DNA of 64,000 bases from the NCBI GenBank assembly GCA_016235765.1, contig JACRIZ010000043.1, positions 43,021 to 107,020 on the forward strand, given 5' to 3'. This DNA comes from Rhodocyclales bacterium (lineage in GTDB: Bacteria; Pseudomonadota; Gammaproteobacteria; Burkholderiales; Rhodocyclaceae). Below are positions 32,346-57,848 of this stretch, in pieces (within the stretch, counting starts at the first letter, position 1; the number at the start of each line of letters is the position of its first letter). The notes under the pieces are model-generated. The model had not been told where the DNA came from, ran no database searches, and saw nothing but the letters and a program-made list of their open reading frames with translations. The position numbers and the translations under genes are program-made.

Positions 32346-32397
32346 GCGATCGATCGGAGATTCCTTGCCATCCGTGTCTGCCAAGTAGGTGTTGTCG

Positions 32398-33969: not shown

Positions 33970-33982
33970 GGAAGTCATTGCT

Positions 33983-36416: not shown

Positions 36417-36438
36417 GAGCCGGCACTGGCGGACATTC

Positions 36439-38720: not shown

Positions 38721-38793
38721 TCGCGGCGGATCGACTGCCTGGCATCGGTGCGGGTATGGGGGAGAAGCGCGTTACAAAATTCCTTCGTTGGGG

Positions 38794-39765
38794 ATGCCTA
38801 TCGTGTTGAAGAAACTGCTGAAGGCGGCAATGGCCTCGCAAGTCGGCTGGAAACTAGCGCAGCCGCTGCGTCCGAATGGCATTACCGTGCTCATGTACCA
38901 TCGCGTCAATCGCACTCGTGATGCGGAGATGCCCGGGATTGGCGTTGACCAGTTTCTCGAGCAGATGACATGGCTCCGCGCTCGCTGCCGCATCATCGCG
39001 CCGGAGGAGTTCACCGCGACATTGCGCCAGGATCGTTCTGGCACTCCGGCGGTACTGGTGACCTTTGACGACGGATATCGAGACTTCTTCGACAATGCGT
39101 ATCCGATCCTGGCAGAACTCGACATTCCGAGCCTGGTCTTTCTGGCAACCCGATTCATGGACGACGGCGGACTGATCTGGACCGACGCCGTAGCCACGGC
39201 GGTACTTCGAACGCGGCGCGCGGACGTCGTCCTGCCTTGGAACAACCAACGTCATGGTCTGGCCGACAAGGCTGAACGTAATGCATGCCGGCGCATGTGT
39301 ACCCAGTTCCTCAAGGGCATTCCCGATCCCGAGCGAGTCGCTTGGCAATCGGAACTGTTTCGTCTTCTCGATATTGTTCCGGAGGACGTCATCGGTGATC
39401 GTCAAATGCTGACATGGGACGAAATCCGAGCCACCAGGCCTCTGACTCGCTATGGCGGGCACACCCATTCCCATCCGATACTTTCGCAACTCGATCGTGC
39501 GACCGCGGAGCAGGAGATCCGCACGTGCCGCGATCGAATCACGACTGAACTTGGCGACCCGCCCAGGTATTTCGCCTACCCGAACGGGCGGGCTCAGGAC
39601 TTTACGGACGAAACCAAGGCTGTTCTGCAGAACCATGGGTTTGAGCTGTCGTTTTCGACCATCGAGGGTATCCATCAGTCCGGCACAGACTTGTACGCGA
39701 TCCGTCGCCAACCGACGGGTTGCAGCACACTGGGCGATTTTGCGTCGCTGGTGTTGGGGCGGTAG
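38794..39765 (+). CDS. Polysaccharide deacetylase (CE4/NodB domain), copy 1
   Basis: VLMYHRVN, AVLVTFDDGYRDFFDNAYPIL, GGHTHSHPILSQL, FAYPNGR. Confidence 0.92.
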   Translation: MPIVLKKLLKAAMASQVGWKLAQPLRPNGITVLMYHRVNRTRDAEMPGIGVDQFLEQMTWLRARCRIIAPEEFTATLRQDRSGTPAVLVTFDDGYRDFFDNAYPILAELDIPSLVFLATRFMDDGGLIWTDAVATAVLRTRRADVVLPWNNQRHGLADKAERNACRRMCTQFLKGIPDPERVAWQSELFRLLDIVPEDVIGDRQMLTWDEIRATRPLTRYGGHTHSHPILSQLDRATAEQEIRTCRDRITTELGDPPRYFAYPNGRAQDFTDETKAVLQNHGFELSFSTIEGIHQSGTDLYAIRRQPTGCSTLGDFASLVLGR

Positions 39766-39767
39766 CC

Positions 39768-40895
39768 ATGGCGATCGTCGTCTTCTGGCTGGCCGTACTC
39801 TTCATCGCCTACACCTACGTGGGGTATCCACTGGGCGTGTGGCTGCTTGCGCGGAGGCGGCCGGAGGAGACCCCGGAGCAATTGGACGCTTGCGACTGGC
39901 CACCGATTACCGTGGTCATTGCGGTGTACAACGAAGCGCAACGTATTGCGAGGAAGATCGCGAATCTCAGGAATCTGGATTACCCGCAGGAAAAGATGAG
40001 CATCCTGTTCGTCTCCGATGGCTCGACCGATGCGACCAATGAACTGCTTGCCAAGGCATCGGGAATTTCCTGGCATGCCTATGCAGAGAGAAGAGGAAAG
40101 CCGTATGCTCTGAACTGCGGACTCCAGAGGGTCGGCACCGAGATCGTCGTGTTTTGCGACGTTCGGCAGGAAATCGAGCGCACCGCCTTCAAGCATCTCA
40201 TCGGACGGTTGGTGCAGCCAGGGGTCGGGGCGGTCAGCGGGGAACTTGTACATCGCGATCCGCAAAGCCATGTTGCTGCCAACATCGGTCTTTACTGGCG
40301 CTACGAGAAGTGGATTCGCAGGTCCGAAAGCCGCGTTGCGTCCTCGATCGGCGCGACCGGCGCCCTCTACGCGATCCATCGCAGCGACTTCGAGCCGTTG
40401 GCCGAGGACACGATTCTCGACGACTTCGAAATACCCATGGCAGTCGTCCGTCGGGGACGACGGAACGTATTCGAGCATCGTGCGATATTCTTCGATGAAC
40501 TCCAGCAGGATACCGCCGGCGAACGGAAGCGAAAGGTACGGACACTGACTGGAAACTATCAGGCATTCTCGCGGCATCGGTGGCTGTTTTCGCCGCGGCA
40601 GAATCCCGTCTTCGTTCAGTTCATGTCCCACAAGGTATTTCGTCTGCTGGTCCCATATGCGCTGATGCTTGCATTGGGGGCGTCCCTTGCCGCGGAGGGC
40701 TGGTTCTATGCCGGCATTGCAGTAGTCCAGGTGGCCTTCTACACGATTGCGATTGCCGGTTCGCGCGCAGCGCGGATGCGTAGCAACAGGATCGTCAGCT
40801 TTGCAGTGGTATTTCTGGAGCTGAACTGGGCGGCGGTATTGGCTTTGGTCAATTTCCTGTCGAGCCGCACGGATGCTAAGTGGGAGAAGACATGA
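39768..40895 (+). CDS. Membrane glycosyltransferase family 2
   Basis: ITVVIAVYNEAQRIARKIANLRNLDYPQEKMSILFVSDGSTDATNE; GAVSGELV; QAFSRHRWLF; C-terminal TM segments. Confidence 0.92.
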   Translation: MAIVVFWLAVLFIAYTYVGYPLGVWLLARRRPEETPEQLDACDWPPITVVIAVYNEAQRIARKIANLRNLDYPQEKMSILFVSDGSTDATNELLAKASGISWHAYAERRGKPYALNCGLQRVGTEIVVFCDVRQEIERTAFKHLIGRLVQPGVGAVSGELVHRDPQSHVAANIGLYWRYEKWIRRSESRVASSIGATGALYAIHRSDFEPLAEDTILDDFEIPMAVVRRGRRNVFEHRAIFFDELQQDTAGERKRKVRTLTGNYQAFSRHRWLFSPRQNPVFVQFMSHKVFRLLVPYALMLALGASLAAEGWFYAGIAVVQVAFYTIAIAGSRAARMRSNRIVSFAVVFLELNWAAVLALVNFLSSRTDAKWEKT

Positions 40896-41683
40896 ACTCC
40901 CTGGTGGTATTCATGTACCACGGACTGTACCGAGGCGATCGGGAGCTTGACACTATCGATGCTTCGGAACGGCCATACGCGATCTCGCTGGAGAAGTTCG
41001 AGCAGCAACTCGATTCTCTCGCCCGGTCCGGGATTCCGGTGCTCGATCCCGATTCGCTCACGACCGGGGCAGTCTTGCGGGGCGGGGTGGTGCTTACATT
41101 TGACGACGGCCACGAGAGCAACTTTCGTCATGCGCTGCCGATACTCGCCGATCGGGGAATCCGTGGCGCGTTCTTCGTGACGAGCGACTTCATCGGCAAG
41201 CGCCCTGGTTACTGCAGTTGGATGCAGATCCGGGAAATGGCAGACCGCGGAATGCTTATTGGCTCCCATGGGCGCACCCACCGGTTCTTCGACGACATGA
41301 CGGCCGAAGAGGCGGAGTCGGAGCTCCGTACGTCCAAGGATGCAATCGAGCAGGCTATCGCGAGTCCCGTCCGGCAGATATCGTTTCCCGGCGGCCGCTA
41401 CCGCGGCGATCAGATCGCGATCGGAAGGCGGGTTGGGTATCAACTATTCCACTCGTCGAGGATCGGGGCGACCGCGCCGCAGCGTGTCTCTACAGGCGCC
41501 GTTCTGTGTCGTATCCCGATTCGGCGCACCACGACGGACGAAGCCTTCGACGCCTACGCCCGGGCGGATTCGATGACCCTGCTACGGGCCAGATTCCTGG
41601 CGGGGGCAAAGCAGGGCATCCGCTACCTGATGGGAAATCGCTTGTACCATCGCCTGTATGAGAGGGTCGCCGGACGTGGTTGA
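40892..41683 (+). CDS. Polysaccharide deacetylase (CE4/NodB domain), copy 2
   Basis: VFMYHGLY, VVLTFDDGHESNFRHALPIL, IGSHGRTHRFF, ISFPGGRYRGDQ. Confidence 0.92.
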   Translation: MNSLVVFMYHGLYRGDRELDTIDASERPYAISLEKFEQQLDSLARSGIPVLDPDSLTTGAVLRGGVVLTFDDGHESNFRHALPILADRGIRGAFFVTSDFIGKRPGYCSWMQIREMADRGMLIGSHGRTHRFFDDMTAEEAESELRTSKDAIEQAIASPVRQISFPGGRYRGDQIAIGRRVGYQLFHSSRIGATAPQRVSTGAVLCRIPIRRTTTDEAFDAYARADSMTLLRARFLAGAKQGIRYLMGNRLYHRLYERVAGRG

Positions 41684-43130
41684 ACGTTCACCAGGAACCC
41701 TGGTCGAGGGTACGATTCCCGAATCGAGTTTCGGCGGGCCGGAGTTCCGGGCGACTCTGCGGCTGTTGATGCTGCCGGCACTCCTGGCCGCGATGGTTGT
41801 ATTGGGCGTGCCCTTGTCGGGGGGGGCTCTGTACGCATTTGCTCTCATCGCTTGCGTGCCTGTGCTGCTGGCATTGCCGCGCAACCCCGAGCCCTTGTTG
41901 GCATTGTTCGTCTTGTATTTGCCCTTGTGCAAGAGCTATGCGATCCCGATCGCGCCAGGCATCAACGGCACCAACATGTTTGAAGCCGGTTTGCTCCTGG
42001 CGCTGATGTTCTCCAGGAGTCGGGGGCGCGAGGCGCCAATCGTTGACAAGCCCCTGCAATGGCCAGTCGCGCTCTGGGCGTTCCTCTCGTTGCTTTCCTT
42101 CGTTACGACAATGGAGCGCGTCGGCGTCGGCGAGGTCGTCATCGGTTACGCCTATTTGCTGAAGGCGTGGCTGGATCAGTTCATCGTGTTCTTTGTCGTT
42201 GGCGCGCTGATCAGTGACCGCAGCATGGCACGTCGGGTCATCATCTACCTGATGATCGGTACCATCCTGGTCATGTTCATAGGCTTCCAGGAATGGCTTG
42301 ATTCGCGGTTTCTGGATAGCATCGAAAAGTCGCGGCTGCTCGGACCGCAACTGCAACCCAACGATTTCGGCGCTTACCTGACCTACTCCGCGGGACCTTT
42401 TATCGGCCTGTTCCTCGTCAACTGGACAAGATGGCGTTCCTGGTTTCTGTTGGCATATTTCATCGTCCTCGCCCGGTTGACCCTGGCAACATTCTCCCGG
42501 GGAGCCTATATCGGACTCGGCGCGGCTCTGCTGGCCGCAACCTACGTTCGAAGCAAGCTGCTTCTCATCTTCGCCATCGGGCTGGTATTCGGGCTGATCA
42601 ACTTTGAACCAGCACTGATGCCGGAGTCCATGAAGGCCCGCGTCGGGCAGACAACTGGCGAAGCCGAATCGGCGGAGGAACTCGACAAGAGCTCCGGGAC
42701 CAGGATCGTTCTATGGGATGCGGCCATTGCCATGACACTGGAAAGGCCAATACTTGGTCACGGATTTGCATCCTTCCCGATGATGAAAGGCAAGTACACC
42801 GAAATTCCGGTTGAGGAGTCCGACAACCACAATATGTTCCTGTACATTTGCTCGCAAATGGGTATCCCGGCCCTGGCGGTCTTCCTCTTTTTGATTTGGC
42901 GAACCTACGTGTGCGGAGCCAGGCTATTTCGCTCATCGGCGAACACATTCGACAAGTCCATTGGCCTGGGCGCGGTAGCAATCGCTGGCGGCATTATTGG
43001 CGTCAACATGTTCGGCAGTCGAATGGTCGACATTGCGGTCTCGGGATATTATTGGGTCTATCTCGCCGCATTGGCTGCATTGCTTGGAAAGAACAATGCT
43101 TCTTCGCATACTCCGGGGAGACCCTCGTGA
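41658..43130 (+). CDS. O-antigen ligase / Wzy-like polysaccharide polymerase, multi-TM
   Basis: About 10-12 hydrophobic segments; RIVLWDAAIAMTLERPILGHGFASFPMMKGKYTEIPVEESDNHNMFLYICSQMGIPAL resembles the Wzy_C region with a conserved His. Confidence 0.88.
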   Translation: MRGSPDVVERSPGTLVEGTIPESSFGGPEFRATLRLLMLPALLAAMVVLGVPLSGGALYAFALIACVPVLLALPRNPEPLLALFVLYLPLCKSYAIPIAPGINGTNMFEAGLLLALMFSRSRGREAPIVDKPLQWPVALWAFLSLLSFVTTMERVGVGEVVIGYAYLLKAWLDQFIVFFVVGALISDRSMARRVIIYLMIGTILVMFIGFQEWLDSRFLDSIEKSRLLGPQLQPNDFGAYLTYSAGPFIGLFLVNWTRWRSWFLLAYFIVLARLTLATFSRGAYIGLGAALLAATYVRSKLLLIFAIGLVFGLINFEPALMPESMKARVGQTTGEAESAEELDKSSGTRIVLWDAAIAMTLERPILGHGFASFPMMKGKYTEIPVEESDNHNMFLYICSQMGIPALAVFLFLIWRTYVCGARLFRSSANTFDKSIGLGAVAIAGGIIGVNMFGSRMVDIAVSGYYWVYLAALAALLGKNNASSHTPGRPS

Positions 43131-44305
43131 CAACCTTGCCCGACACGCGACCGCTGGTCGTCCATCTGATCGATGAACTTCCACCTGACGGTGCCGAGCG
43201 TCTGGTCGTCGACATACTTCGGTATCCGAACCCGCGATTTCGCTACGCAGTGGGTTGCGTAATCCGTGGCGGCGTCCTGGAAGACGAGCTGCGGGCAATG
43301 GGCGTCCCCGTCGTCGTCTTCGGGAGACGTGGACGTCTCGATATCGGCCTGATCTTTCGACTGGCCCGGTGGATGCGTCGCGAGCAGGTGAAGGTACTCC
43401 ATACGCACCTGTTCACCGCCGATACTTACGGGCGGATTGCGGCGCGCATCGCGGGGGTCCCGGCCATATTCTGCACGGTGCACAATATCGTCAACCCGTG
43501 GAAGGGCCGGATCCATGCGGCGATCGATTGGCTGCTCGCACGGATTTCGACCCGTGTCATCGGGTGCACCGACGAAGTCGCGGAGGTGCTCAAGACGCGT
43601 GACCGCCTTCCCGCCGCACGAGTCGTCGCGATTCGAAATGGAATCGACTTGCGCCGTTTCCAGTCGATTTCGGGCGCCGGCGTCCGTGAGGAGTTCGGCA
43701 TACCTCCTGATCGGCTCCTGCTCGCGGTAATAGGGCGTCTGCATCCGCAGAAGGCCCATCTCGATTTGCTGCAGGTCTTTGCCTCGCTCCGCCCCGAGGT
43801 CAGAAGCAAATTCGCCTGCCTGATCGTCGGCGACGGCGATCTTCGCCAGACACTGGAGGAAGAGACGGCGCGCCTGGGCTTGCAGGAGCAGGTGATATTC
43901 ACCGGCTTGCGACGCGACGTTCCCCGTCTCTTGTGCGCGTTGGATCTGTTCGTAATGTCGTCGCGCTGGGAGGGACTGCCGATCGCCTTGCTCGAGGCGA
44001 TGGCCTGCGGCGTGGCCCCGTTGTCGACCGCCGTTGGCGGTGTCCCGGACGTAATTGAGAATGGCGTCAACGGCATACTCGTGGACGCCGGCGATGCCCC
44101 CGCAATGGCGGCCAAGCTTGCCTTGCTGATCGAGGATTCCGCGCTGCGCTTGCGCCTGGGGCGACAAGCGCAAGCGGACGTGTTGCGCCGCTATGACGTG
44201 CTTCGCACCGCCGAGGCGTACGACGCGCTCTATCGCGAGGCGCTTGGCATTGCCGGGCAAGTCGATGCCCTGAAGCCGATAGGCGCGATTGCGGCGAACG
44301 ACTAG
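43127..44305 (+). CDS. Glycosyltransferase, GT4-like family (GTG start)
   Basis: VVHLIDELPPDGAERLVVDIL; LLLAVIGRLHPQKAHLDLLQVFASL; VMSSRWEGLPIALLEAMACGVAPLSTAVGGVPDVIENGVNGILV. Confidence 0.93.
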   Translation: MTTLPDTRPLVVHLIDELPPDGAERLVVDILRYPNPRFRYAVGCVIRGGVLEDELRAMGVPVVVFGRRGRLDIGLIFRLARWMRREQVKVLHTHLFTADTYGRIAARIAGVPAIFCTVHNIVNPWKGRIHAAIDWLLARISTRVIGCTDEVAEVLKTRDRLPAARVVAIRNGIDLRRFQSISGAGVREEFGIPPDRLLLAVIGRLHPQKAHLDLLQVFASLRPEVRSKFACLIVGDGDLRQTLEEETARLGLQEQVIFTGLRRDVPRLLCALDLFVMSSRWEGLPIALLEAMACGVAPLSTAVGGVPDVIENGVNGILVDAGDAPAMAAKLALLIEDSALRLRLGRQAQADVLRRYDVLRTAEAYDALYREALGIAGQVDALKPIGAIAAND

Positions 44306-44306
44306 C

Positions 44307-45179
44307 ATGGGTATCGGTGGGGTGTTGCTCAGGCGACTGGCGGGAGCGGCGTTTCTGCCGGGTGCCTGGCTGCAGAGCAGATTCCAAGGTGGCATCCGCA
44401 TCCTGATGTATCACCGCGTTTCGCCAGCACCCGTCTATGACCAACTCACGGTAACCCCCGAGCGATTCGCCAGGCAAATGGAATATCTCCGTCGCCACTG
44501 CCGAATCCTCGGTCTTGCCCAGGCCGTCGACGAACTGCGAAGCTCCGAGTTCGTGCGGTCGGGAATCGTAGTCACTTTTGATGACGGCTACCGAGACAAT
44601 CTGGAGTTTGCGCTACCGATATTGAGGCGATTCGAAATTCCGGCAACCATTTTTGTCACTACCGCGTTCTGCGACCAGACGGCACGCCATCCGCGGTATC
44701 CGGAGAGTCCGGAACGTCTGCATCTCGACTGGCATGAGGTGCGTGAACTTGCCAATACACCGGGTATAAGCATCGGCTCCCACACGTTGACCCACCCGTA
44801 TTTGTCCCGAACAACGGATACCCAGGCATCGGTCGAGATTTGCTCGAGCAAGGACAGGCTGGCTTCGGAGGTTCAAGGGCCGGTGGACTACTTCTGTTAC
44901 CCCTCCGGTGACGTTACCGAGCGCGAGCAACAGATGGTCCAGTCGGCCGGGTATCGTGCGGCGGTCACCGTTGCGCCGGGTGTTAACGCTTGCGGCGTGG
45001 CGCTGCATGCTTTGCGAAGAACCGAAATCACGGATCGCGACGGCGTTGTCGATCTCTTCATGAAGGTGAAGGGTGCATATGATCCGATCCACCGGCTGCT
45101 CCATTGGCGCCGGCGCCGGAGTTTTGCGAAAGCGGCGACTGCCGCGCGTCTTGGAGTGGCATCGGGAGCGAACAAGTGA
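44307..45179 (+). CDS. Polysaccharide deacetylase (CE4/NodB domain), copy 3
   Basis: ILMYHRVSPAPVYDQLTVTPERFARQMEYL; IVVTFDDGYRDNLEFALPIL; IGSHTLTHPYLSRT; FCYPSGDVTEREQQMV. Confidence 0.92.
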   Translation: MGIGGVLLRRLAGAAFLPGAWLQSRFQGGIRILMYHRVSPAPVYDQLTVTPERFARQMEYLRRHCRILGLAQAVDELRSSEFVRSGIVVTFDDGYRDNLEFALPILRRFEIPATIFVTTAFCDQTARHPRYPESPERLHLDWHEVRELANTPGISIGSHTLTHPYLSRTTDTQASVEICSSKDRLASEVQGPVDYFCYPSGDVTEREQQMVQSAGYRAAVTVAPGVNACGVALHALRRTEITDRDGVVDLFMKVKGAYDPIHRLLHWRRRRSFAKAATAARLGVASGANK

Positions 45180-46306
45180 GAATCCTGTATCTGATGACGG
45201 AACCCCTCGGGATTGGCGGAGTTCAGTCCGACCTCCTGACACTCAGTGAAGATCTGACCAAGCGCGGACATGAGGTGCATGTGGCGGCAATGTCGGGCGT
45301 GCTGCTCGATGAAATCAAGGCCAAGGGCGCCAGGCATGTCGAGATCGATTTCCATTTTCGCGGGATCTTTGCCTTCGTCAAGGCCGTCAGGCTCTTGCGG
45401 CGATGCGTGCGCGAGCAGGAAATCGAGCTTGTGGCGCCGCAATCGGTACGCTCCACCGTCGTTGCATATTTCGCGCTGCGCTTGCTGCCATTCGGCTATC
45501 GGGTCAGGGCCACGGCGCGGCGGGTTCCGATTGTCACGACAATTCACAATATCCATAACCCGATCCATTTTCGCTATGCCGGTGCCATTCTGGAGCGCTG
45601 TGCGGATTACGTGATTTTTGAATCCCACTATGAGCGTAACCGCTTGCTGAAGAGCGGCCTCGACGAAGCAAAATCGACCGTGATCCACAGCGGTATCGAC
45701 ACCGACCGCTTCGTACCAGGGCTGCGCGCCGATTCGCTGGAAAAGCGCTACGGCCTCGATAAGGAGACTCACTTCGTTTTCGGTATCGTGGCCAGACTCT
45801 CGGAAGAAAAGGGGCACCGGTACCTGGTGGAGGCATTCAGGCGGGTGGTTGGTCGAATGCCCAACGCCAGGCTGATGATTGTCGGCGACGGGCCGCTGCT
45901 GGATGAGACCGTACGCCAGGTTGAGTCGCTGGCGCTGACCGGGACGGTGATCTTCACGGGGCTGCAACGCGATATTCCCGAATATCTCGCGTTGTTCGAT
46001 ACGTTCGTTCTTTCATCCACGCGGGAATCGTTTCCCCTGGCTGCGCGTGAAGCCATGGCGGCAGGAAAGGCCGTGATCGCTCCCCGCATTGGCGGGTGTC
46101 CGGAAGTGGTGGACGACGGTGTAACCGGATACCTGTTCGAGTCCGCCAACGTCGGCCAGCTCGCAGACTGCATGCTTCGCCTCGCGGAGAACGGTCAATA
46201 CCTCCAGTACGGTCGTGCTGCGCGCGAACGAGTTGAGCGGCTCTTTTCGCGGCGATCATGGGTCGACGGCGATGAAGATGCATATCTGCGTTGGTTGGCA
46301 AAATAG
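45176..46306 (+). CDS. Glycosyltransferase, GT4-like family (GTG start)
   Basis: ILYLMTEPLGIGGVQSDLLTLSEDLTKRGHEVHVAAM; GIVARLSEEKGHRYLVEAFRRVV; FVLSSTRESFPLAAREAMAAGKAVIAPRIGGCPEVVDDGVTGYLF. Confidence 0.93.
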   Translation: MRILYLMTEPLGIGGVQSDLLTLSEDLTKRGHEVHVAAMSGVLLDEIKAKGARHVEIDFHFRGIFAFVKAVRLLRRCVREQEIELVAPQSVRSTVVAYFALRLLPFGYRVRATARRVPIVTTIHNIHNPIHFRYAGAILERCADYVIFESHYERNRLLKSGLDEAKSTVIHSGIDTDRFVPGLRADSLEKRYGLDKETHFVFGIVARLSEEKGHRYLVEAFRRVVGRMPNARLMIVGDGPLLDETVRQVESLALTGTVIFTGLQRDIPEYLALFDTFVLSSTRESFPLAAREAMAAGKAVIAPRIGGCPEVVDDGVTGYLFESANVGQLADCMLRLAENGQYLQYGRAARERVERLFSRRSWVDGDEDAYLRWLAK

Positions 46307-46323: not shown

Positions 46324-47703
46324 ATGGCCATTAACTCTGTTCGATTGCCTACGCTCAACGCAAAGGCGGTAGCCAGGTTCCCGTTGCTGCCGTGGTTGCT
46401 GGTGGGCTCCGCGTCTCTCGCCGTTGCGCTGGGTCTGGTTGTTCGGCGCTATCCTCCGTCGTTCTGGCTGGACCAGCCGGCTGCAGTCGCCAACTCGGGG
46501 TTCTGTGCCGGAATGGTGACGGACAAGCTGCCGCATCCGATGTCCAGTGTGCCGAAACCCGCAATGGGTGTCCCGTTCGTCGATCCGGCATTCGGCACCA
46601 GGGTGATACGGATCACCGACGTACAGGCTGAGACCGGATTCGTGGGCGGACGGGTGCCGATGTATTCGACGGTGCCGGCCTGGAATGCCGACGAGTCCTA
46701 TCTCATCGTCTTTCAGACGCATGCGTATTCGCAATCCGGCTTGCGGTCCCGGCACCTGCTGTATGACGGGAAGACCTACCAGTTCATCAGGGAACTCGAT
46801 ATCGGTCCGGCCGACGTCGAACACGTCTATTGGGATAGCAAGGATCCGGACGTACTTTACTACCCGTTTACCTACGAGGCCTCGGGGCGGCCGATTCGCC
46901 AACTCGTCAAGTATCACGTCGGATCGGGGCAAAGGGAAGTGCTGGAAAATTTCGCTTGCCCAGGCACGCTCGATTTTGGTCATCCGAAGTACATGGCCTG
47001 GGACGGGAGTCGTATCGGAATGCGGTGCCGGGGCAGGTACCCCGCTGCGGAGACCTTCGTTTTTGATCTATTGGCGTCGCGCGAAAGTCCGCGCATCAAC
47101 AGTCCCAGGGACATCGGCATCCAGGTTGCTCCGAGCGGCAAGTTGGGGATGTTCGGTTCATCGGTCATCGATCTTTCCTCGATGACACCGGTGCGGACGT
47201 TGAAGACCAACCCATGGGAGCACGGAACATTGGTCCCGACCGCTGGCGGCCAGGATGCCTTCGTTTCTGTTCAGTTTGACGGCAATTACATTGGTACGCT
47301 CATGCTGGAGAACCTCCAGACGGGGGGAGTCCGGGAGATCATCGGCAAGAAGACCGGCTGGCGGTCATATCCCCCGGTGACGACCCACATCTCCACCACG
47401 GCCTTCCAGGCGCGCGGCTGGGTGGCGGTTTCGATCGAAGGCGAACATGCCGGACGGAATGTTCTGGACCAGGAGCTCGTGATTGCGAACGTCGATACCG
47501 GCGAGGTTTGTCGAGCGGCACATCATCACTCGCGCAGCACGAGCGGACCGCGCGGCTATTGGGCAGAGCCCCATGTGGTGATCAGCCCGACGGGAACGCG
47601 CCTGATGTTCGGCAGCGACTGGGGCGGCGGTACCACGGTCGATACCTACATCGTAGAGTTGCCGGGATACACCAAAGGCCGTAGCCGCGCAACAGCCAAG
47701 TAG
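46324..47703 (+). CDS. Uncharacterised N-terminally anchored/secreted propeller-like protein (PD40-like), paralogue of 47791-50184
   Basis: N-terminal hydrophobic segment LLPWLLVGSASLAVALGLVV; repeated beta-type segments; DPAFGTRVIRITDV...TVPAWNADESYLIVFQTHAY...YWAEPHVVISPTGTRLMFGSDWGGGTTVDTYIVELPGY. Confidence 0.75.
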   Translation: MAINSVRLPTLNAKAVARFPLLPWLLVGSASLAVALGLVVRRYPPSFWLDQPAAVANSGFCAGMVTDKLPHPMSSVPKPAMGVPFVDPAFGTRVIRITDVQAETGFVGGRVPMYSTVPAWNADESYLIVFQTHAYSQSGLRSRHLLYDGKTYQFIRELDIGPADVEHVYWDSKDPDVLYYPFTYEASGRPIRQLVKYHVGSGQREVLENFACPGTLDFGHPKYMAWDGSRIGMRCRGRYPAAETFVFDLLASRESPRINSPRDIGIQVAPSGKLGMFGSSVIDLSSMTPVRTLKTNPWEHGTLVPTAGGQDAFVSVQFDGNYIGTLMLENLQTGGVREIIGKKTGWRSYPPVTTHISTTAFQARGWVAVSIEGEHAGRNVLDQELVIANVDTGEVCRAAHHHSRSTSGPRGYWAEPHVVISPTGTRLMFGSDWGGGTTVDTYIVELPGYTKGRSRATAK

Positions 47704-47747
47704 GCAGAGTTGGCGCTGCGAAACGTAACTCGGTAGATCACTGCTGC

Positions 47748-47774
47748 TGGCGGCCCGCAATCGCGTGGCCGCCA
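47748..47774. terminator. Putative hairpin (bidirectional terminator-like) between convergent genes
   Basis: TGGCGGCC-CGCAATCGCGT-GGCCGCCA: 8-bp perfect stem, 11-nt loop, in an 87-bp gap between convergent CDSs; no T-tract seen. Confidence 0.45.
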
Positions 47775-47790
47775 GACAAGCAGAGCGGTC

Positions 47791-50184
47791 TCAAGGAACG
47801 TAGGTCGGCAGTTCGATCACGTAGGTATCGACGGTCGAACCCTTGTACCAGTCGCTCGGGAACAGAATCCGGGTACCGCGCGGGCTGAGTATGACGTTAG
47901 GCTGCGCCCAGTAGTTCTGGTTCGACGAATTGGCGTCGTAACCAAAGCTGCGGTGATGCGCGAGACGACAGAAGCTTCCCGTGTCGACGTTGGCCAGCAG
48001 GATTTCCTGGGTGAGATAGGTCGCTGCCGGATTGGAAACATTGAGGCCATTCCCCGTCGCGCCGACTGCAACCCATCCCGGTTTCTGGAATGCCTTTCCG
48101 CTTACCAGAGTACCCGTGGGCGGATAGGGGTCGCCCTTGGCTTCGCCTATGATGGTCGAAACCGTGCCCTTGGTGAGGTTGGCGACCATGAGCGTACCGC
48201 TTCCGGACGGACCGTCGTACTGCACCCCGGCCACGAGATCGTCGCCGGCAGCATTCTTCATCATGTCGCTATGTTCCTCGCCGCTCCATGCCACCGTGCG
48301 GATGACCGTGTTGGTCGTCGCATCGAGCACCTTGCTGCTGGTGGTCCCCGCCAGATACCTCAGGGTACCCGATGGCGCCGCTTGGGGAACGAGAGCAATC
48401 AGATGCTGGGTGGGGCCGATGGTATTGGTGGAGAGCCGATAACTGAACCCCTCGAAGGTCGTATTGGCGCCCCCGGTCTTGCGGCATCCGAGTCCGATCA
48501 GATCGTTGTCGTAGCTCATGAAGAAGGGATCCTGGCCGCCACTCACCAGATCCGCCCCGGTACATACCGACTTGAGCACCCCACTGGCGATATCGGTGGC
48601 AAAGTTGTGGACCGTGTCCTTTGCTCCTGTCGAGACGTGCATGCGCGTCAGGACGTACGAATTCTGATCCACGTAGTAGATCAGGTCCGGATTCGTCCTA
48701 TCCCAGTAGAACTGTTCGACGTCGGCCGGATTGATGTCGAGCATCTTGATGAGGGCATAGGTTTTGCCATTGAGCAGCGCCCAGCCCCTGAACGGTTGGG
48801 TGACGTAGAGGAGCAGATAGGTTTCGTCAGCGTTCCAGGCGGGAATGGTCGGATATGCCGGGATGGCGACGGTGGCGCCTGGCCACTGGGTTGCCACATC
48901 GGTAATCCGGCGAATCGTCGTGCCGAAGTTCGGGTCCGTGACGGCCTGATAGAGGGCGGGCTTGGGCAGATTCGAATAGGCGACCAGACTCTTGCCGGTA
49001 TTGGCTACGCCGCTGCAAAGATCCGCCGACGGGCTGTTGGCTGTGCAGGTGATGCTGGCAGTGATATTGGCACTGCCCATCGTGCCGTTGCCGTTCGTCA
49101 CGCTGCAGGTCTGGCCCGATGGCTGCGCCAGGACCGAAACCGAATAGGGTGATCCGCTGGCAAGCGTGGTGCTGAAGGTATACGTTCCGTTGGCGGTCAC
49201 GGACAGGTTGTCGCCGCCGTTGTTTTGCGCGACGAAGCTTGTCGTTGCGGCCAGGCCGGATACCGTAGCGTTTACGTTGTAGTAAGTAGTCGTGGCGCAA
49301 TTGACGTTGACATTTGTGACATTCGACGCAGGTACGGTACCGCTGGCGTTCGAGATCACGCAGTTCTGGCCGACGGGCTGGGTCGAGACGGCGACCCCAT
49401 AGGCCGATCCGTACGACAGGGCCGTCGAGAAGGCAAAACTGCCGTTTGCCGAAACCGACGTCGTATTGCCGCCATTGTTTCGGAGCGAAACGGTCTTGCC
49501 GCTCCCCAACCCGCTCACCGTACCACCGATCGAGTAGGTCTTCGGAACGCACGACACGGCCACGCTGACATTGGCGGTGCCCACGTTGCCACTGCCGCTG
49601 GCAACCGTGCAAGTCTGGCCAAGTGGCTGTGTCAGCACCGTCACAGCGTATGCAGCTCCGCTCGTCAGCGGGGTGTTGAAATTGTAGGACGCATTGCCGG
49701 CGGCCGTCAGGTTGTCGCTCCCGTTGTTTTGCAGGACGACAGAGGTCCCTGCCACAAGCCCGGAGACGGCTATGCCTACATTGTAGGAAGAGCTGGAACC
49801 GGAACACGCTACGGATACGGTGGTGACATCGGCGTTGCCGACGGTACCGCTACCGTTGGTCACGGTGCAGGTTTGGCCGGTCGGTTGCGAAGCGACAGTC
49901 ACGGCGTAGGTTGCGCCGCTGGCGATGGGGGTACCGAACGCGAAGGTACCGTCTGCCGAAATTGTCTTGCTGTTCCCCCCGTTGTTCAGCAACCTCAGCG
50001 TGTTGCCGGAAGTCAGGCCGGTGACAGAGCCGCCGACAGCATAGGAGCTGGTGATAGCGGTACCGCTTACGGTGGTGCTCGTGCTGGTCGTTCCTTCGCT
50101 GCCGCCGCCGCCACCGCAACCGGATAGCATCGCCACAGAGGCGAACGAGGTGGCCAGAAAGACGTTCCTAAGATTTGATTTCAT
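47791..50184 (-). CDS. Uncharacterised lipoprotein: four Ig-like repeats plus C-terminal propeller-like domain
   Basis: Start MKSNLRNVFLATSFASVAMLSGCGGGGG (lipobox LSGC); four approx. 80-residue Y-x-V-x-x-x-V-x-G-L repeats; C-terminal DPNFGTTIRRITDV...TIPAWNADETYLLLY...YWAQPNVILSPRGTRILFPSDWYKGSTVDTYVIELPTYVP. Confidence 0.82.
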   Translation of the reverse strand: MKSNLRNVFLATSFASVAMLSGCGGGGGSEGTTSTSTTVSGTAITSSYAVGGSVTGLTSGNTLRLLNNGGNSKTISADGTFAFGTPIASGATYAVTVASQPTGQTCTVTNGSGTVGNADVTTVSVACSGSSSSYNVGIAVSGLVAGTSVVLQNNGSDNLTAAGNASYNFNTPLTSGAAYAVTVLTQPLGQTCTVASGSGNVGTANVSVAVSCVPKTYSIGGTVSGLGSGKTVSLRNNGGNTTSVSANGSFAFSTALSYGSAYGVAVSTQPVGQNCVISNASGTVPASNVTNVNVNCATTTYYNVNATVSGLAATTSFVAQNNGGDNLSVTANGTYTFSTTLASGSPYSVSVLAQPSGQTCSVTNGNGTMGSANITASITCTANSPSADLCSGVANTGKSLVAYSNLPKPALYQAVTDPNFGTTIRRITDVATQWPGATVAIPAYPTIPAWNADETYLLLYVTQPFRGWALLNGKTYALIKMLDINPADVEQFYWDRTNPDLIYYVDQNSYVLTRMHVSTGAKDTVHNFATDIASGVLKSVCTGADLVSGGQDPFFMSYDNDLIGLGCRKTGGANTTFEGFSYRLSTNTIGPTQHLIALVPQAAPSGTLRYLAGTTSSKVLDATTNTVIRTVAWSGEEHSDMMKNAAGDDLVAGVQYDGPSGSGTLMVANLTKGTVSTIIGEAKGDPYPPTGTLVSGKAFQKPGWVAVGATGNGLNVSNPAATYLTQEILLANVDTGSFCRLAHHRSFGYDANSSNQNYWAQPNVILSPRGTRILFPSDWYKGSTVDTYVIELPTYVP
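49045..50043 (-). repeat. Four tandem Ig-like protein repeats (approx. 79-86 aa each) within the lipoprotein gene
   Basis: Repeat starts YAVGGSVTGL / YNVGIAVSGL / YSIGGTVSGL / YNVNATVSGL; each contains an LNNGG/QNNGS-type motif, a QPxGQxC motif and a terminal Cys. Confidence 0.85.
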
Positions 50185-50398: not shown

Positions 50399-51169
50399 CT
50401 ACCGCGCCCATCCGCGCAGTCGATAGTATTCGCGCCCCACCACTTCGTGAATGACCGCCGACCAAACGTCGGGTGCACCGTTGTCGGGAAACCAGATGCG
50501 CCAGGTTGGATCTTCCACCTGGCGATAGTCGCATGGCCAAGGAATGGCCTGAAGATCCAGTTGCGACGCGACGGCAAGTGCTCTGGGCATGTGAATTGCG
50601 CTTGTGACGATCCAGATGGTCGCTTGACTGGCGCCGATTGCATCGCGCGCGTGCAGCAGATCCTGATAAGTATTGTCGGAATTCGGTACCGCGATGATCG
50701 AGTCGGCCGGTATGCCGGCATCCATCGCAATTCCGCGCATGAGTGCGGCCAGCGACTGATTTGGTGTCTCGGCCGGGCCGCCCGTTACAACCAGTGTTCC
50801 GCCGACCATTTTCGAGAGTTTCACTCCGGCATTGAGTCTTTCCCATCCGGCGGCATCAAGTTTCGGGTGCGGTTGTCCGTTGCGCGCGCGCATCTGGCCA
50901 CTGCCAAGCACGACGATGAAGCGATCGTGACCGCGGGTGCTCTGTTCCGGGCGCAATTCGGAAACCGGCCCTTCCAGGTAGGAGACGGCTAGATTTGCCA
51001 GCCCCGGCGTCGAGAATGTCCAGACCCAAACCACCGCGACGAGCAGCGGGCCGGATAGCCGATGGATGCGCAGAGCGGCCGTTGACCGTAGTGAAAGTAC
51101 GGCAAGTACCGTGACCAAGGCCACGAGCAGCACAGGAGTTGGAAGCAGGAGATCGAGAAGATCGGCCAT
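50399..51169 (-). CDS. YdcF family (DUF218; ElyC/SanA-like) membrane protein
   Basis: Two N-terminal TM segments; DRFIVVLGSGQMRARNG...LVVTGGPAETPNQSLAALMRGIAMDAGIPADSIIAVPNSDNTYQDLLHA...WIVTSAIHMPRALAVA. Confidence 0.9.
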   Translation of the reverse strand: MADLLDLLLPTPVLLVALVTVLAVLSLRSTAALRIHRLSGPLLVAVVWVWTFSTPGLANLAVSYLEGPVSELRPEQSTRGHDRFIVVLGSGQMRARNGQPHPKLDAAGWERLNAGVKLSKMVGGTLVVTGGPAETPNQSLAALMRGIAMDAGIPADSIIAVPNSDNTYQDLLHARDAIGASQATIWIVTSAIHMPRALAVASQLDLQAIPWPCDYRQVEDPTWRIWFPDNGAPDVWSAVIHEVVGREYYRLRGWAR

Positions 51170-51253
51170 GGCCTGGCTACGAATCGGCGCGACGCAATCG
51201 AGCGCCGCGCGAGGCGCCGATCCTGGCTGGCATGCGTTGCACGCGAACCGCGC

Positions 51254-52327
51254 TCAAGGCGAGAGCTTCCTGTGCCGCCGATACTTGTCCAGGAGGCCGC
51301 GCGACAGCAGGAGTTTGGCGATTGTCTTCAGGCTCCGGAGGCGCAGGGCGCCATGCCCGATGCTGCTTAGCAAATACTTGACGGCAGTCGGCTTGTCTCG
51401 CTCGAGGGCCGCTTCTGCGGCATTCAAGTAGCATGCTCCGATGCGCCTGTGAAAACGGAACCGGTGGCGGAGATAGAGTTCTGGGTCACTTGCCCGCACC
51501 TTTTCCAGGGTGGCAATGACATCGAGGGATATCTGCTCGCTGTTCTTTGACGAACTGAGCTGGGTATCGGAATATCGATACTTGAGCAAGGGAGTGTCGA
51601 TATAGGCAGCCGGCCCGTGGCGGCAGACGCGAATGAACCAATCGTAGTCCGTCCCGTTGGGGATGCGCTCGTCGAATTCCCCGACTGTGTCGATTACGGT
51701 GCGTCTGACCATGACGGTCGGCGGATGGATGAAATTGCCCCAAATGATTTGCTCGTAGATCGTCCCGAACAATACATTTACCTGCCCTGTGCCGCTGGTT
51801 TTGCCGTCGACGAAACTCAACGGTTTCCTCGACGCATAGAAGGCGGCCAAGCCTCCGGGGGTCCTGGCGACGCTGCGATAGTAGGTCGCAATATGGGAGG
51901 TTTCAACGACCCGGTCTGCGACGAATGCAGAGAAGTCCGACGAGCACAGGATGAGTTCCGGGATTTGGGCAAAGCACTCCACTTGAAGGGCCAGTCGCCC
52001 CGGCAGGCAAATGTCGTCGGCATCCAGAAGGGCGATCAAATCGCCTTTCGCAACTTTGAGTCCAAGATTGCGAGCCGATGCCAAGCCGCCATTCGACTTG
52101 CGCCTGTATACAATCTTGTCGCGGTATCCTTGGAGTACTGCAGCGGTCGAATCCGTCGAACCGTCGTCGATGACGACTATCTCGACATTCGGATAGGACT
52201 GAGCCAATACGCTGTCGATGGTCTCTGAAACGAATGCCGCCGCGTTGTAGCAAGGAATGACGACGCTGACCAACGGTGGTACCGTGGGCTGGCCGGAGAT
52301 GGCAGTATGCGTTTGGGGTGGGATCAT
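51254..52327 (-). CDS. Glycosyltransferase family 2
   Basis: PLVSVVIPCYNAAAFVSETIDSVLAQSYPNVEIVVIDDGSTDSTAAVL...LIALLDADDICLPGRLALQ. Confidence 0.94.
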   Translation of the reverse strand: MIPPQTHTAISGQPTVPPLVSVVIPCYNAAAFVSETIDSVLAQSYPNVEIVVIDDGSTDSTAAVLQGYRDKIVYRRKSNGGLASARNLGLKVAKGDLIALLDADDICLPGRLALQVECFAQIPELILCSSDFSAFVADRVVETSHIATYYRSVARTPGGLAAFYASRKPLSFVDGKTSGTGQVNVLFGTIYEQIIWGNFIHPPTVMVRRTVIDTVGEFDERIPNGTDYDWFIRVCRHGPAAYIDTPLLKYRYSDTQLSSSKNSEQISLDVIATLEKVRASDPELYLRHRFRFHRRIGACYLNAAEAALERDKPTAVKYLLSSIGHGALRLRSLKTIAKLLLSRGLLDKYRRHRKLSP

Positions 52328-52330
52328 CGA

Positions 52331-53803
52331 TTACGCCCTTTGCGTCAGCCGCCCGACCAGCACGCGGACGATACTGCGAGACTGCTGATCGAATAACAGA
52401 ACCAGTACCGAGTAGGTCAGGGTGCCGCCCAGCACTTGTGCAACCAGGCTTGCCCATCGGTTGCTCAGTGATATTGAATCGACAATCGCAAACATGACCA
52501 GTGACAGGAGCGCAAATTTCGCCGCGCTGACTAACGGAACGGAGTAGGGCAGCACCTTGCGGCCGGCATGCCAGGCCCCAAGAGCCAGCGCAACGTAGGC
52601 CAGCAGCGTCGCGAGAGCCGCGCCGACAATGCCGAGGCCGGGAATCAATCCGATGTTCAATGCAACATTCAAGACTGCACAGGATGCCATCAACGCAGCC
52701 ATGATCAGGGTGCGCTTGTGGATGTAGAGCCCGGCCGCGAGAATGCTGATGGCACCTTCCACAGCCATTCCGCCTACGACATAAGGAATTATCGTGGCAC
52801 CTTCGGCATACTTGTCGGACGCCAGGATGACTAGCACTTCCCCGCCTATCGCGGAGACGCCGGCCACCAGCGGAAACGCAACCAACAGATAGTAATGCAG
52901 GGTCTGACGGACGAAACGTCCAGTTTCGTCGGGACCTTTGTCCTCCCAGCAGCGAACGACCATGGGCATCGCTGCCTGGCCCAAGGCGGCGAGAAACACA
53001 ACCTGAACATATTGGCAGAAGTTGTATCCGGCCGAGTAGACGCCCAACGATTCGCTCCCCAGCATGGCCTCGATCACATAGCGATCACCAATGTTCAGCA
53101 CGATTCCGGACAACTCGAAAGCGATCATCGGAATGCCAAAGGCGAGCATGCGTCGGAACAGTTCCGGGGAGTATTCGCGCGGCGAGAATCGCCGCGTGCG
53201 GCTCATCGCCGCCAGCAGTACCCCTGTTGCGATGGCTTCGGCGATGACGGTCGCCCAGAAATATCCATAGAGGTCGCGCGCAACGCCGAACAGCGTGACC
53301 AGGACCAGGGCCAGGGAGCCATAGCGCTTGGCGACGTTGTAGATGTTCAGGGTTCCGCTTCGCTCCTCGGCGCGCAGGAAATTTACCAGACTGCTGTCGA
53401 TGGTCCGGATGAACAGCAGTATTGCGGTTATCAGGAAGAGACCCGCAACCCGTGGGTCGTTCCACCAGGCGGTCGGTATCGACTGACTCACGACGGCCCA
53501 TGCGACCGTCGTTGCCAGCCCGACAGCCATCATGCCGAACAGGGTGGTCGACAGGTACTGTGAAACGCTCGCATCTCGATGTCCGGATCGCACTTCGCCG
53601 TAGAAACGAACGATGGAGTGTTGAACGCCGAGTTTGGATATCGCCAGCAGTAGACCGAGCGTTGCAGAGATCAGGTTGAGTACGCCGTACTCGCCGACGG
53701 AAAAGATTCGGGTGAAGATGGGAAAGGAAATGAAGCCCGAAATCGTAACCAGCAGGTTCCCGACGGAGTAGTTGGAGACGTGACGCGCTAGCCGCCTAAG
53801 CAC
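52331..53803 (-). CDS. Wzx-like polysaccharide flippase (oligosaccharide/MATE-like superfamily)
   Basis: 490 aa, about 12-14 TM segments; SNYSVGNLLVTISGFISFPIFTRIFSVGEYGVLNLISATLGLLLAISKLGVQHSIVRFY. Confidence 0.92.
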   Translation of the reverse strand: MLRRLARHVSNYSVGNLLVTISGFISFPIFTRIFSVGEYGVLNLISATLGLLLAISKLGVQHSIVRFYGEVRSGHRDASVSQYLSTTLFGMMAVGLATTVAWAVVSQSIPTAWWNDPRVAGLFLITAILLFIRTIDSSLVNFLRAEERSGTLNIYNVAKRYGSLALVLVTLFGVARDLYGYFWATVIAEAIATGVLLAAMSRTRRFSPREYSPELFRRMLAFGIPMIAFELSGIVLNIGDRYVIEAMLGSESLGVYSAGYNFCQYVQVVFLAALGQAAMPMVVRCWEDKGPDETGRFVRQTLHYYLLVAFPLVAGVSAIGGEVLVILASDKYAEGATIIPYVVGGMAVEGAISILAAGLYIHKRTLIMAALMASCAVLNVALNIGLIPGLGIVGAALATLLAYVALALGAWHAGRKVLPYSVPLVSAAKFALLSLVMFAIVDSISLSNRWASLVAQVLGGTLTYSVLVLLFDQQSRSIVRVLVGRLTQRA

Positions 53804-54965
53804 CGTGCTGCTTCCCTGCGTTGCTGCCGTGAGCGTTCCGATTGCGGGCCAGAGCGGGAAATATCCGCTTCAAGTGGCCTTTCAGTCTCGAGATGCCTTT
53901 GGTCTGGAGGAGATGGAGCGTCGTTTGCGCGCCGGGACGAAAGGCCGTGAAGGCGTGCGTCTCGCGGCGCGATTTTCCCCATTGCGTCTTGTAGCCATGG
54001 TCACCGCGAAGGAAGTCGTAAACGTCGTTGCCCTCCCCAATCGCGTGCTCCAGGGAGTATCCGATCAAGACCAAGCCCGGGCGAAGCCGCTCATAGTCCG
54101 GATCGAATCCGGCCTGAAAGTAGAAGATCTGGTTGCGAAAGCGGTAACAGTAAAGGACCGCAATGCGCTTGCCGTCTGCCTCGAGACAGTAAAGCCGGAT
54201 CCGGTCGTGACGGGCGATGGCGTGAACCACGTCGCGATGGAAGGCGATGTATTCGGGTGTCGAGAACGAGTGGCCTTCCGGATTTCCTTGCCAACGCTTG
54301 TGGTGCAGTTCGATGAGACTGCCGAGGACATCGTCGACCTGGTTCTCCTCGGTCACGACATAGAATCGACCCTGGTGCTGGGTTTCGATCTTCCGGCGTG
54401 TGCGCCGAATGGTGTTTCTTCGATCACCATTGAGGCTCGCCAGATAGTCATCCCAGGTTCGGGGCAGCGCCGCGAGTGCAATCGTCGCGGAAAGCTCTGA
54501 AGTGTGGAAATAGCCGCATGCCCGGAATTGGCGATCGAGTTCAGCGTAGAAGTCTGAACTCTGGTCGAGATCACTGAGGCACAGGATCGACCAATTCGGA
54601 AGCTGGTGGATGACAAAGGTCACCAAGACGGGGATGGTCAGGTTTGCCGACGCTGGATCAAGGATCGGGCCGAGATAATCCGGCGATGTGTCGCCACCCG
54701 TACCAATGAATCTGGCGGTGGTGGTTGGCCAAATTCGCAGGACTCTGGTTTGCTGCAGATAGATGGGCAATATGGCTTTGAGGCGGTCGTCGTCCCAAAC
54801 GGTGACGATGCAGAGACTATGGTGCTTCCCATAGTGTTGCCACCAATGGTGGTTCCACTCCCAAGTCATGAATATGCTTGCTGCGTCCGCCGTCTCGAGT
54901 AGTTCATTCCAGTCGGTCGCGATTGCAAGGAACTGCTCGGCGGAATCAATTACGCGAACTTCCAT
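53796..54965 (-). CDS. CelD/BcsL / FemAB-like GNAT-fold acyltransferase
   Basis: WNELLETADAASIFMTWEWNHHWWQHYGKHHSLCIVTVWDDDRLKAILPIYL...RFRNQIFYFQAGFDPDYERLRPGLVLIGYSLEHAIGEGNDVYDFLRGDHGYKTQWGKSRR. Confidence 0.9.
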   Translation of the reverse strand: MEVRVIDSAEQFLAIATDWNELLETADAASIFMTWEWNHHWWQHYGKHHSLCIVTVWDDDRLKAILPIYLQQTRVLRIWPTTTARFIGTGGDTSPDYLGPILDPASANLTIPVLVTFVIHQLPNWSILCLSDLDQSSDFYAELDRQFRACGYFHTSELSATIALAALPRTWDDYLASLNGDRRNTIRRTRRKIETQHQGRFYVVTEENQVDDVLGSLIELHHKRWQGNPEGHSFSTPEYIAFHRDVVHAIARHDRIRLYCLEADGKRIAVLYCYRFRNQIFYFQAGFDPDYERLRPGLVLIGYSLEHAIGEGNDVYDFLRGDHGYKTQWGKSRRETHAFTAFRPGAQTTLHLLQTKGISRLKGHLKRIFPALARNRNAHGSNAGKQHGA

Positions 54966-55523
54966 ATCTTCAACAGTATCGGATGGCAGCTCGACAGCCG
55001 ACGACGCGGCGGCACATGCCCATCGGCAAAGCCACCACAGGTGGTGTCGCTGGGGCCGCTGCGGCAGGGCAGTAGTTGTCGTACATCGTGATTCAGCGTT
55101 TGCCGGTTGAGAAATCGCAGCGGGCGGCGATTTCGCGTGGTTGGGAATGGGCGATCTCGACGGCGTCGAAGCAGGATTCTATTCGTTTTGCCGCGGCGGT
55201 TGGTTGCGCAGTTCATGAAGACACTATGGAAATCAGCGTTTCTTCATTCCCACTACAATCTTCATGGAATCTTGCGTGCCGGTGGCGAGGAACGCGGAAG
55301 GCTTTCCCGCCTCCAGGCTGGCAATAAGCGAGCGCGTTGGTACATTCGGACTAATAAATCGATCCATCGAATCGAAGCGTATAACATAGGCGCCGGGACG
55401 AGGGCCATCCTTCTTGACGTCGCGGCTTGCGTCGATGCCTTGATCATGATTCGTGCTTCGTTCCATGACGAACGAAACGGCTAGAATGCTGCCAATCTTT
55501 TACAACTATTGCAGGGAGTCGCA

Positions 55524-56810
55524 ATGTCTCGCGTCGTCGCCGTCTGTGGTTTGGGGTACGTAGGTCTGCCGCTTGCCGTCGAATTCGGCAAAAAGCATGA
55601 AACGATTGGCTTTGATCTCTCGGAAACGAAGATTGCCAATTACAAGAAGTTCATCGATCCAACCGGTGAAGTCAGTACCGAGGACCTGAAGGCCGCGCGC
55701 CACTTGTCGGTATCCACAGACCCCACAACGCTGGCAAAGGCGGACGTGATCATCATCGCCGTGCCGACCCCGGTTGATGAGGCGCATATCCCCGATTTCT
55801 CGCCGCTGGTCGGTTCCTCGACCACCGTCGGCAAGTACATGAAGAAGGGTGCGATCGTCGTCTATGAATCGACGGTTTATCCCGGCGCCACGGAAGAAGT
55901 CTGCATTCCCTTGCTGGAAAAGCACTCCGGCATGAAGTGGAAGAAGGATTTCCACGTCGGCTATTCGCCGGAGCGGGTCAACCCGGGCGACAAGGAGCGG
56001 ACGATCACCAGGATCGTCAAGGTCGTCTCGGGCGACGATGCGGCGACCCTCGATACGGTGGCGGAAGTCTATGGTTCCGTGATCACCGCGGGCGTCCATC
56101 GCGCCAGTTCGATCAAGGTCGCCGAAGCGGCCAAGGTCATCGAGAATACGCAGCGCGACCTGAACATCGCCTTGATGAACGAGTTGTCGATCATCTTCGG
56201 CCGCATCGGCATCGATACCCTGGAGGTGTTGCAGGCGGCCGGCACCAAGTGGAACTTCCTGCCGTTCCGTCCGGGTCTGGTTGGCGGCCACTGCATCGGC
56301 GTCGATCCCTACTACCTGACGCACAAGGCCGAGATGCTCGGCTACCATCCGGAAGTGATCCTTGCCGGCCGGCGCATCAACGACGGCATGGCGGCCTACA
56401 TCGCTCAGCAGACCATCAAGGGCCTGATCCGGAGCGGCAGCGCCGTCAAGGGCGCCAGGGTCGCGGTGCTCGGCCTGACCTTCAAGGAGAACTGTCCCGA
56501 CCTGCGCAACTCGAAGGTGGCGGATCTGGTTCGGGAACTCCAGGACTATGGCTGCGATGTCTCGGTGCACGACCCCATCGCGGAGGCTCCGGAGGCCAAG
56601 CATGAGTACGGCATCACGCTGTGCTCCTGGAACGACATGCCGAAGAATGCGGATGCGATCGTTGCGGCGGTTGCGCACCGCGAGTACCTGGGCATGCCGC
56701 TGTCGGACGTTCTTGGTCGCCTGAAGTCGGGTGGCCTTTTCGTCGATGTGAAGTCCGCCTACGATCAGGCTGCCATTGGCAAGGCCGGCTACGTGCTCTG
56801 GCGGCCCTGA
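55524..56810 (+). CDS. tviB: Nucleotide sugar dehydrogenase, TviB/WbpO-like (UDP-N-acetyl-hexosamine 6-dehydrogenase)
   Basis: VVAVCGLGYVGLPLAVEFGKKHETIGFDLSETKI; YESTVYPGATEEVCIPLLE; WNFLPFRPGLVGGHCIGVDPYYLTHKAEMLGYHPEVILAGRRINDGM. Confidence 0.92.
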   Translation: MSRVVAVCGLGYVGLPLAVEFGKKHETIGFDLSETKIANYKKFIDPTGEVSTEDLKAARHLSVSTDPTTLAKADVIIIAVPTPVDEAHIPDFSPLVGSSTTVGKYMKKGAIVVYESTVYPGATEEVCIPLLEKHSGMKWKKDFHVGYSPERVNPGDKERTITRIVKVVSGDDAATLDTVAEVYGSVITAGVHRASSIKVAEAAKVIENTQRDLNIALMNELSIIFGRIGIDTLEVLQAAGTKWNFLPFRPGLVGGHCIGVDPYYLTHKAEMLGYHPEVILAGRRINDGMAAYIAQQTIKGLIRSGSAVKGARVAVLGLTFKENCPDLRNSKVADLVRELQDYGCDVSVHDPIAEAPEAKHEYGITLCSWNDMPKNADAIVAAVAHREYLGMPLSDVLGRLKSGGLFVDVKSAYDQAAIGKAGYVLWRP

Positions 56811-56813
56811 GCA

Positions 56814-57848
56814 ATGACCGCCTATCAGCAACTGCAATCCCGCCTGCGGGGCGAGCGTCATGTATGGCTCGTCACCGGCGTCGCCGGCTTCATCGGCAGC
56901 AACCTGCTCGAAGCCCTGTTGAAACTTGACCAGTCGGTGGTGGGCCTGGACAACTTCGCGACCGGCCACCAGCACAACCTGGATCAAGTCCAGGGACTGG
57001 TGACGCCGGAGCGATGGGCGCGGTTTCGCTTCATCAAGGGCGACATCCGCAGGCTCGAGGATTGCCGCACCGCCTGCGCCGGCGTTGATTACGTCCTGCA
57101 CGAGGCGGCGCTGGGCTCCGTGCCGCGGTCGCTGGAAGACCCTATCACGACCAACGCGACGAACATCGACGGCTTCCTGAATATGCTGGTCGCCGCTCGC
57201 GACGCGAGCGTCAAGCGCTTTGTCTATGCGGCGTCGAGTTCAACCTACGGCGACCATCCTGGGTTGCCGAAGGTGGAGGATCGGATCGGCAAGCCCTTGT
57301 CGCCCTACGCGGTCACGAAACTGGTCAATGAGCAATACGCCGACGTGTTTACGCGCGCTTACGGTTTCCGGACCATCGGTCTGCGCTACTTCAACATCTT
57401 CGGCCAGCGTCAGGATCCGAATGGCGCCTACGCGGCGGTGGTGCCAAAGTGGACGGCGGCGATGATGGCGGGTGAGCAGGTTTGGATCAACGGCGACGGC
57501 GAGACCAGTCGGGACTTCTGCTATATCGCCAACACCGTACAGGCCAATCTGTTGGCTGCGACGGTGACGAGTGACGAGGCGACCAACCAGGTCTACAACG
57601 TCGCGGTCGGCGATCGTACGACCTTGAACGATCTGTTCGAGGCGATTCGCGTGCTGCTGGCGCCACGCTTCAAGCATCTTGCCGACTTCAAGCCCAGCTA
57701 CCGCGACTTCCGGGCGGGTGACGTACGGCATTCACTGGCCGACGTCACCAAGGCTCGGACCTTGTTGGGCTACGAGCCCAGCCATCGCATCGGCGAGGGC
57801 CTGCGGGAAGCGATGGACTGGTACGTCGCCAACGTCGGCGGCAAGTAG
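56814..57848 (+). CDS. tviC: NAD-dependent epimerase, TviC/WbpP-like (UDP-N-acetyl-hexosamine(uronate) 4-epimerase)
   Basis: [108 protein letters not shown]. Confidence 0.92.

Follow-up and report, generated by a model that had tools for sequence, protein, structure and literature searches.

In the window, which here means the whole 64,000-nucleotide stretch of DNA that was analysed, two convergent genes within an EPS locus encode proteins sharing an extracytoplasmic propeller domain that is best read as secreted and distantly related to oligogalacturonate lyase (PL22). Because the domain is lyase-like and protein 1 keeps most of the site residues, the pair may trim or hold the slime of its own cell. 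Tentatively, and with somewhat less than even confidence, we propose that this secreted PL22-like family acts on self-made uronate EPS, which protein 1 probably cuts and protein 2 probably binds. Both ORFs are present where the first-pass annotation had placed them, in the following arrangement (strand in parentheses).

31647..37530 (+): XrtA-type EPS export, chain length, tyrosine kinase, outer-membrane protein and ATPase genes, from NCBIfam models
37581..46306 (+): glycosyltransferases, polysaccharide deacetylases and Wzy-like ligase, upstream of protein 1 on the same strand
46324..47703 (+): propeller protein 1, 459 aa, with an N-terminal hydrophobic segment and a PL22-like propeller domain from about residue 55
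47747..47775 (no strand): GC-rich inverted repeat CTGGCGGCC...GGCCGCCAG, between the convergent genes of proteins 1 and 2
47791..50184 (-): propeller protein 2, 797 aa, with a lipobox, Ig-like repeats at about residues 47-383 and a PL22-like propeller domain from about residue 385
47794..49032 (-): propeller domain of protein 2, 78% identical to Propionibacteriaceae proteins L024/L025
49036..50046 (-): four Ig-like repeats of 83-86 aa each, within protein 2
50399..54965 (-): DUF218 (ElyC-like) protein, GT2, Wzx flippase and FemAB-like acetyltransferase, upstream of protein 2 on the same strand
55509..57848 (+): TviB-like nucleotide-sugar dehydrogenase and TviC-like epimerase, each the best family but below the equivalog cut-offs

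The EPS locus extends over 31647-57848 and, judging by its gene content, is of XrtA type. Five models (TIGR03027, TIGR03007, TIGR03018, TIGR03016 and TIGR03015) all exceed the NCBIfam cut-offs in 31647..37530 and, together with the glycosyltransferase, deacetylase, Wzy, Wzx and FemAB-like genes, they bear out the EPS setting proposed for the pair in the first-pass annotation. Protein 1 is the last gene of the same-strand EPS run 31647-46306 (+), and protein 2 the final gene of another such run, from 54965 down to 50399 (-). The inverted repeat between them, in which a T-run is absent, is a possible shared terminator; a promoter/terminator scan gave nothing above chance. A TIGR02602 search detected no exosortase in the genome, although this absence is not certain because the genome is 87% complete and in 136 contigs. 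The TviB-like product scores 496 bits against an equivalog cut-off of 592, and the TviC-like product 503 against 760. These two genes are the probable suppliers of UDP-GlcNAcA/GalNAcA, and because of their presence an N-acetylated uronic acid is a probable constituent of the polymer, in keeping with a uronate lyase.

Similarity between the two products is far beyond chance. In a BLASTP comparison, 170 of 424 positions are identical (40%, E=4e-84), and residues 60-449 of protein 1 pair with residues 389-795 of protein 2, i.e. with its C-terminal ~410 residues. The homology of protein 1 to the C-terminal half of protein 2, as first described from matching segments that are all present in the products, is thereby upheld.

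The N-termini of the two proteins differ in kind. In protein 1, a single strong hydrophobic segment covers residues 22-40 and may be a signal anchor or a signal peptide; the N-terminal anchoring first proposed is thus one of two possible readings. The start is ATG at 46324 or TTG at 46291, with a clear ribosome site at neither. Protein 2 has the lipobox AMLSGC followed by Gly-rich sequence, and the four Ig-like repeats noticed at first reading are found, with 43-52% mutual identity and beta-strand-rich units in the structure model. Foldseek matches of the full-length model (mean pLDDT 79) include the pilin PitA and the TIE protein, and these are probably due to the Ig-like region. Presentation at two cell-envelope positions, as suggested for the pair, would be consistent with these N-termini.

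Structure prediction and fold search agree with the propeller fold proposed earlier, with PL22 oligogalacturonate lyases as the top PDB match for both models. For the protein 1 domain, modelled from a 22-sequence alignment (pLDDT 84, pTM 0.87), the PL22 structures 3pe7 and 3c5m occupy Foldseek ranks 1-3 at E 2e-15 to 1e-14, followed by WD40 (6.5e-10) and TolB (3.5e-9). For protein 2, 3c5m_B ranks first at 2e-13 and the next propeller is at 5e-9. Oligogalacturonate lyases therefore lead other propellers by four to six orders of magnitude in both models, with a TM-score by target length of 0.65-0.67. For this reason the likeness to PL22 is the better of the two family guesses made from the sequence; for the other, PD40, no match was found in either protein.

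Pfam, NCBIfam and PHROGs searches with both propeller domains matched no family, PF14583 (PL22) matched neither protein and reached only E=0.0042 with the best relative, and a search of PDB sequences gave weak matches only, with PL22 at E=1. Across 150 genomes of the phylum, PF14583 produced weak or partial matches only, and none in this genome. A 22-sequence family profile compared with PL22 was also weak (57%, E=1e-4). With a profile of 60 domains against five real PL22 sequences, the result was 96.5% and E=1e-9 (for a single comparison) over 333 columns, in a full-length and collinear alignment. Its score is 75.6; 40 column shuffles gave no more than 27.3, and the reversed profile gave 15.8. 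A generic-propeller control, TolB, scored 63.1 over 161 columns only, in a set of 12 sequences of which one (L131) was in the wrong reading frame. Since TolB also scores high, part of the PL22 signal reflects generic propeller likeness; the score alone is not decisive, and the argument for a PL22 relation is carried by full length, blade register and fold rank.

Few residues are kept over the 60 diverged domains: H300, H355, Y412, E415 and H417 (H or Q) in most of them. The corresponding stretches of PL22 carry H242, H287, Q350, H353 and H355, of which we take H242 to be the base and the remaining four to be Mn ligands. The E-P-H motif of the family aligns exactly with H353-P-H355 of PL22, so that H417 equals H355 and E415 replaces H353, while the Q350 position is Y. 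In the automatic alignment, H355 of the family is offset by one residue from PL22 H287, and H300 by three residues from H242. Protein 1 retains H300, H355, E415 and H417 at the putative PL22-type site, whereas protein 2 has H, L, Q and N, the last three at positions 355, 415 and 417. Q and N are able to bind metals, and for that reason the site of protein 2 is described as changed and not as inactive. The same L, Q and N occur in its two actinobacterial relatives. Site-altered copies beside intact ones are found here and in three-gene clusters of two other genomes (G009 and G142, loci L042 and L044), where the third gene has Y and Q at positions 300 and 355; these altered copies belong to separate tree branches.

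The first-pass annotation described the pair as a duplicated module. As a local or recent event, this is contradicted by the closest relatives of protein 2, which are Propionibacteriaceae proteins 78% identical to it on contigs of two separate metagenome assemblies. Such identity points to transfer between phyla and, together with the rejection of a tree that has proteins 1 and 2 as sisters (p-AU 2.5e-11), speaks against recent tandem duplication in this locus; despite gene adjacency and 40% identity, we consider that origin highly improbable. A deeper common branch of the two, including actinobacterial proteins, is not rejected by the same test (p-AU 0.33), which makes an ancient duplication possible. 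A third copy of the family, 45% identical, lies just outside the window on the minus strand (G000:C130:40089-41213; L002, L040:7093-8514). This lipoprotein starts with Gly-rich sequence, has its site residues intact and adjoins acnB, far from EPS genes.

The family is rare and patchy. A single-sequence search detected it in 3 of 199 genomes of the order, and a profile search in 15 of 369 genomes of the class. Within the taxonomic family it occurs in one of 101 genomes, and the only other genome of the same genus is without it. Members are also present in Bacteroidota, Chloroflexota, Actinomycetota and Myxococcota. Plasmid and phage collections contained no relative, so there is no sign of mobile carriage. 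N-termini judged by eye resemble signal or lipoprotein sequences. In one member (L095:6571-9936, 1122 aa) the domain continues into a long acidic extension at the C-terminus, and two members carry tandem family domains in a single protein (L090:7304-11407, L098:9073-12198).

When an EPS setting is scored as at least three EPS marker classes in the region fetched, 10 of 37 family neighbourhoods qualify (L016, L017, L034, L042, L044, L081, L086, L098, L099 and L100), against none of 20 control regions drawn from the same genome set. A one-sided Fisher test done by hand gives p ~0.008, but loci such as L042/L044 and L099/L100 are closely related and do not count independently, and the markers were taken mainly from the window's own locus. 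Many copies, among them those of Bacteroidota and Actinomycetota and several gammaproteobacterial ones, have no EPS gene nearby. The link between propeller and EPS drawn in the first-pass annotation thus holds for part of the family; homologues widely found away from any polysaccharide locus had been named there as evidence against it, and this objection half applies: many are indeed away, while 10 of 37 are near EPS genes.

Outside the window, TviB is also present in the family-bearing EPS loci of G009, G142 and G641. Locus L081 has three family members with TviB, TviC and a DUF218 gene, as in the window, and L016 combines four members with two FemAB-like genes, DUF218 and a Wzy-like gene. 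The DUF218/ElyC-like gene of the window (50399-51169) lies beside protein 2, and DUF218 recurs in the family-bearing EPS loci L016, L042, L044 and L081. The FemAB-like gene of the window is located at 53796-54965; in L017 and L018, two FemAB-like acetyltransferase genes directly adjoin the propeller gene. In addition, L042:6847-13627 and L044:6891-13893 each contain three consecutive distant family genes inside an EPS locus, the third with altered site residues.

The main rival to a cutting role holds that both proteins are non-catalytic EPS-binding matrix or assembly proteins, with a role like that of the Bap1/RbmC propeller domains of Vibrio cholerae, and that conservation of the residues serves to keep up a funnel for binding sugar or metal. 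It draws on the changed site residues of protein 2, on the Ig-like stalk and lipobox that suit surface display of this protein, on the variable N-terminal stalks that suggest surface presentation of the relatives, and on the existence of known EPS-binding propellers (PMC11695861). However, almost every other member retains the site residues despite large divergence, a pattern better explained by a chemical role than by binding of varied kinds, and binding alone appears to us a rather unlikely explanation. Quite improbable, in our judgement, is that the domain is some other enzyme, either a hydrolase or a lyase whose substrates are non-uronate or foreign glycans, employed in feeding or matrix remodelling and associated with EPS loci only sometimes. 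Members of Bacteroidota, Chloroflexota and Actinomycetota outside recognised EPS loci, some with T9SS-like tails, would agree with such an enzyme, as would the varied chemistry of propeller carbohydrate enzymes, among which GH145 and PL42 use opposite faces (PMC8377490); the nearest fold is nevertheless a uronate lyase, and catabolic kdu-type genes were not recognised around the copies read.

Under the preferred reading, a PL22-like family acting on self-made uronate EPS, protein 1 would be located at the inner membrane or secreted, would bind the uronate-containing EPS of the locus in its central funnel, and would cut or trim it by metal-assisted beta-elimination. H300 is the candidate base, and H355, E415 and H417 are candidate metal ligands. 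Protein 2 would be a lipoprotein on an Ig-like stalk, and its part would be to hold EPS at the cell surface, not to cut it. A broader form of the proposal, in which widely transferred, secreted PL22-like uronate lyases of EPS loci comprise a catalytic copy and a site-altered, EPS-binding lipoprotein copy, is offered as doubtful. Because the domain lacks a Pfam or NCBIfam model, annotation currently misses a part that recurs in EPS loci. Should the domain prove to be a lyase, it would be a secreted PL22 counterpart directed at acidic EPS of the cell's own making, and enzymes of this kind are of use in dispersing biofilms and controlling flocs. Single mutants in the conserved residues could test the claim directly.

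Among known systems, PL22 (PF14583; 3pe7, 3c5m) is closest, as the top fold match of both domains and in the full-length collinear profile alignment, the x-P-H His motif before the last strands and the conserved His at similar places. In contrast to PL22, the family is without a PF14583 match, has Y and E at the Q350 and H353 positions, and combines a signal or anchor sequence with an EPS context instead of a pectin-catabolic gene setting: kduI, kduD and KdgM genes stand beside real PL22, and an EPS locus surrounds proteins 1 and 2. We do not file the proteins as PL22, since they match neither its Pfam model nor its gene context and conserve only part of its metal set. AlgL has an alpha-helical fold, unlike the propeller proteins 1 and 2. 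It is a uronate lyase encoded in the alginate biosynthesis cluster (PMC8988225), and the likeness is that of a lyase gene within the biosynthetic cluster of its own polymer. Together with RbmB, AlgL is a precedent for a lyase that is encoded alongside the EPS on which it acts. The PL24, PL25 and PL42 ulvan/glucuronate lyases are seven-bladed propellers which cut uronate linkages with His, Tyr or Arg, the PL42 example being metal-independent (PMC8377490); they share with the proposed lyase the cutting of uronates by a propeller, but are absent from the best 50 fold matches listed for protein 1. In V. cholerae, RbmB trims the Vibrio polysaccharide VPS, and the Bap1/RbmC propellers bind VPS and crosslink cells and matrix (PMC11695861). 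Lyase and propeller binders are different proteins there, and the Bap1/RbmC propellers are absent from the best 50 PDB matches listed for both models; by role, the likeness is of an EPS lyase and EPS-binding propellers working on a self-made polysaccharide.
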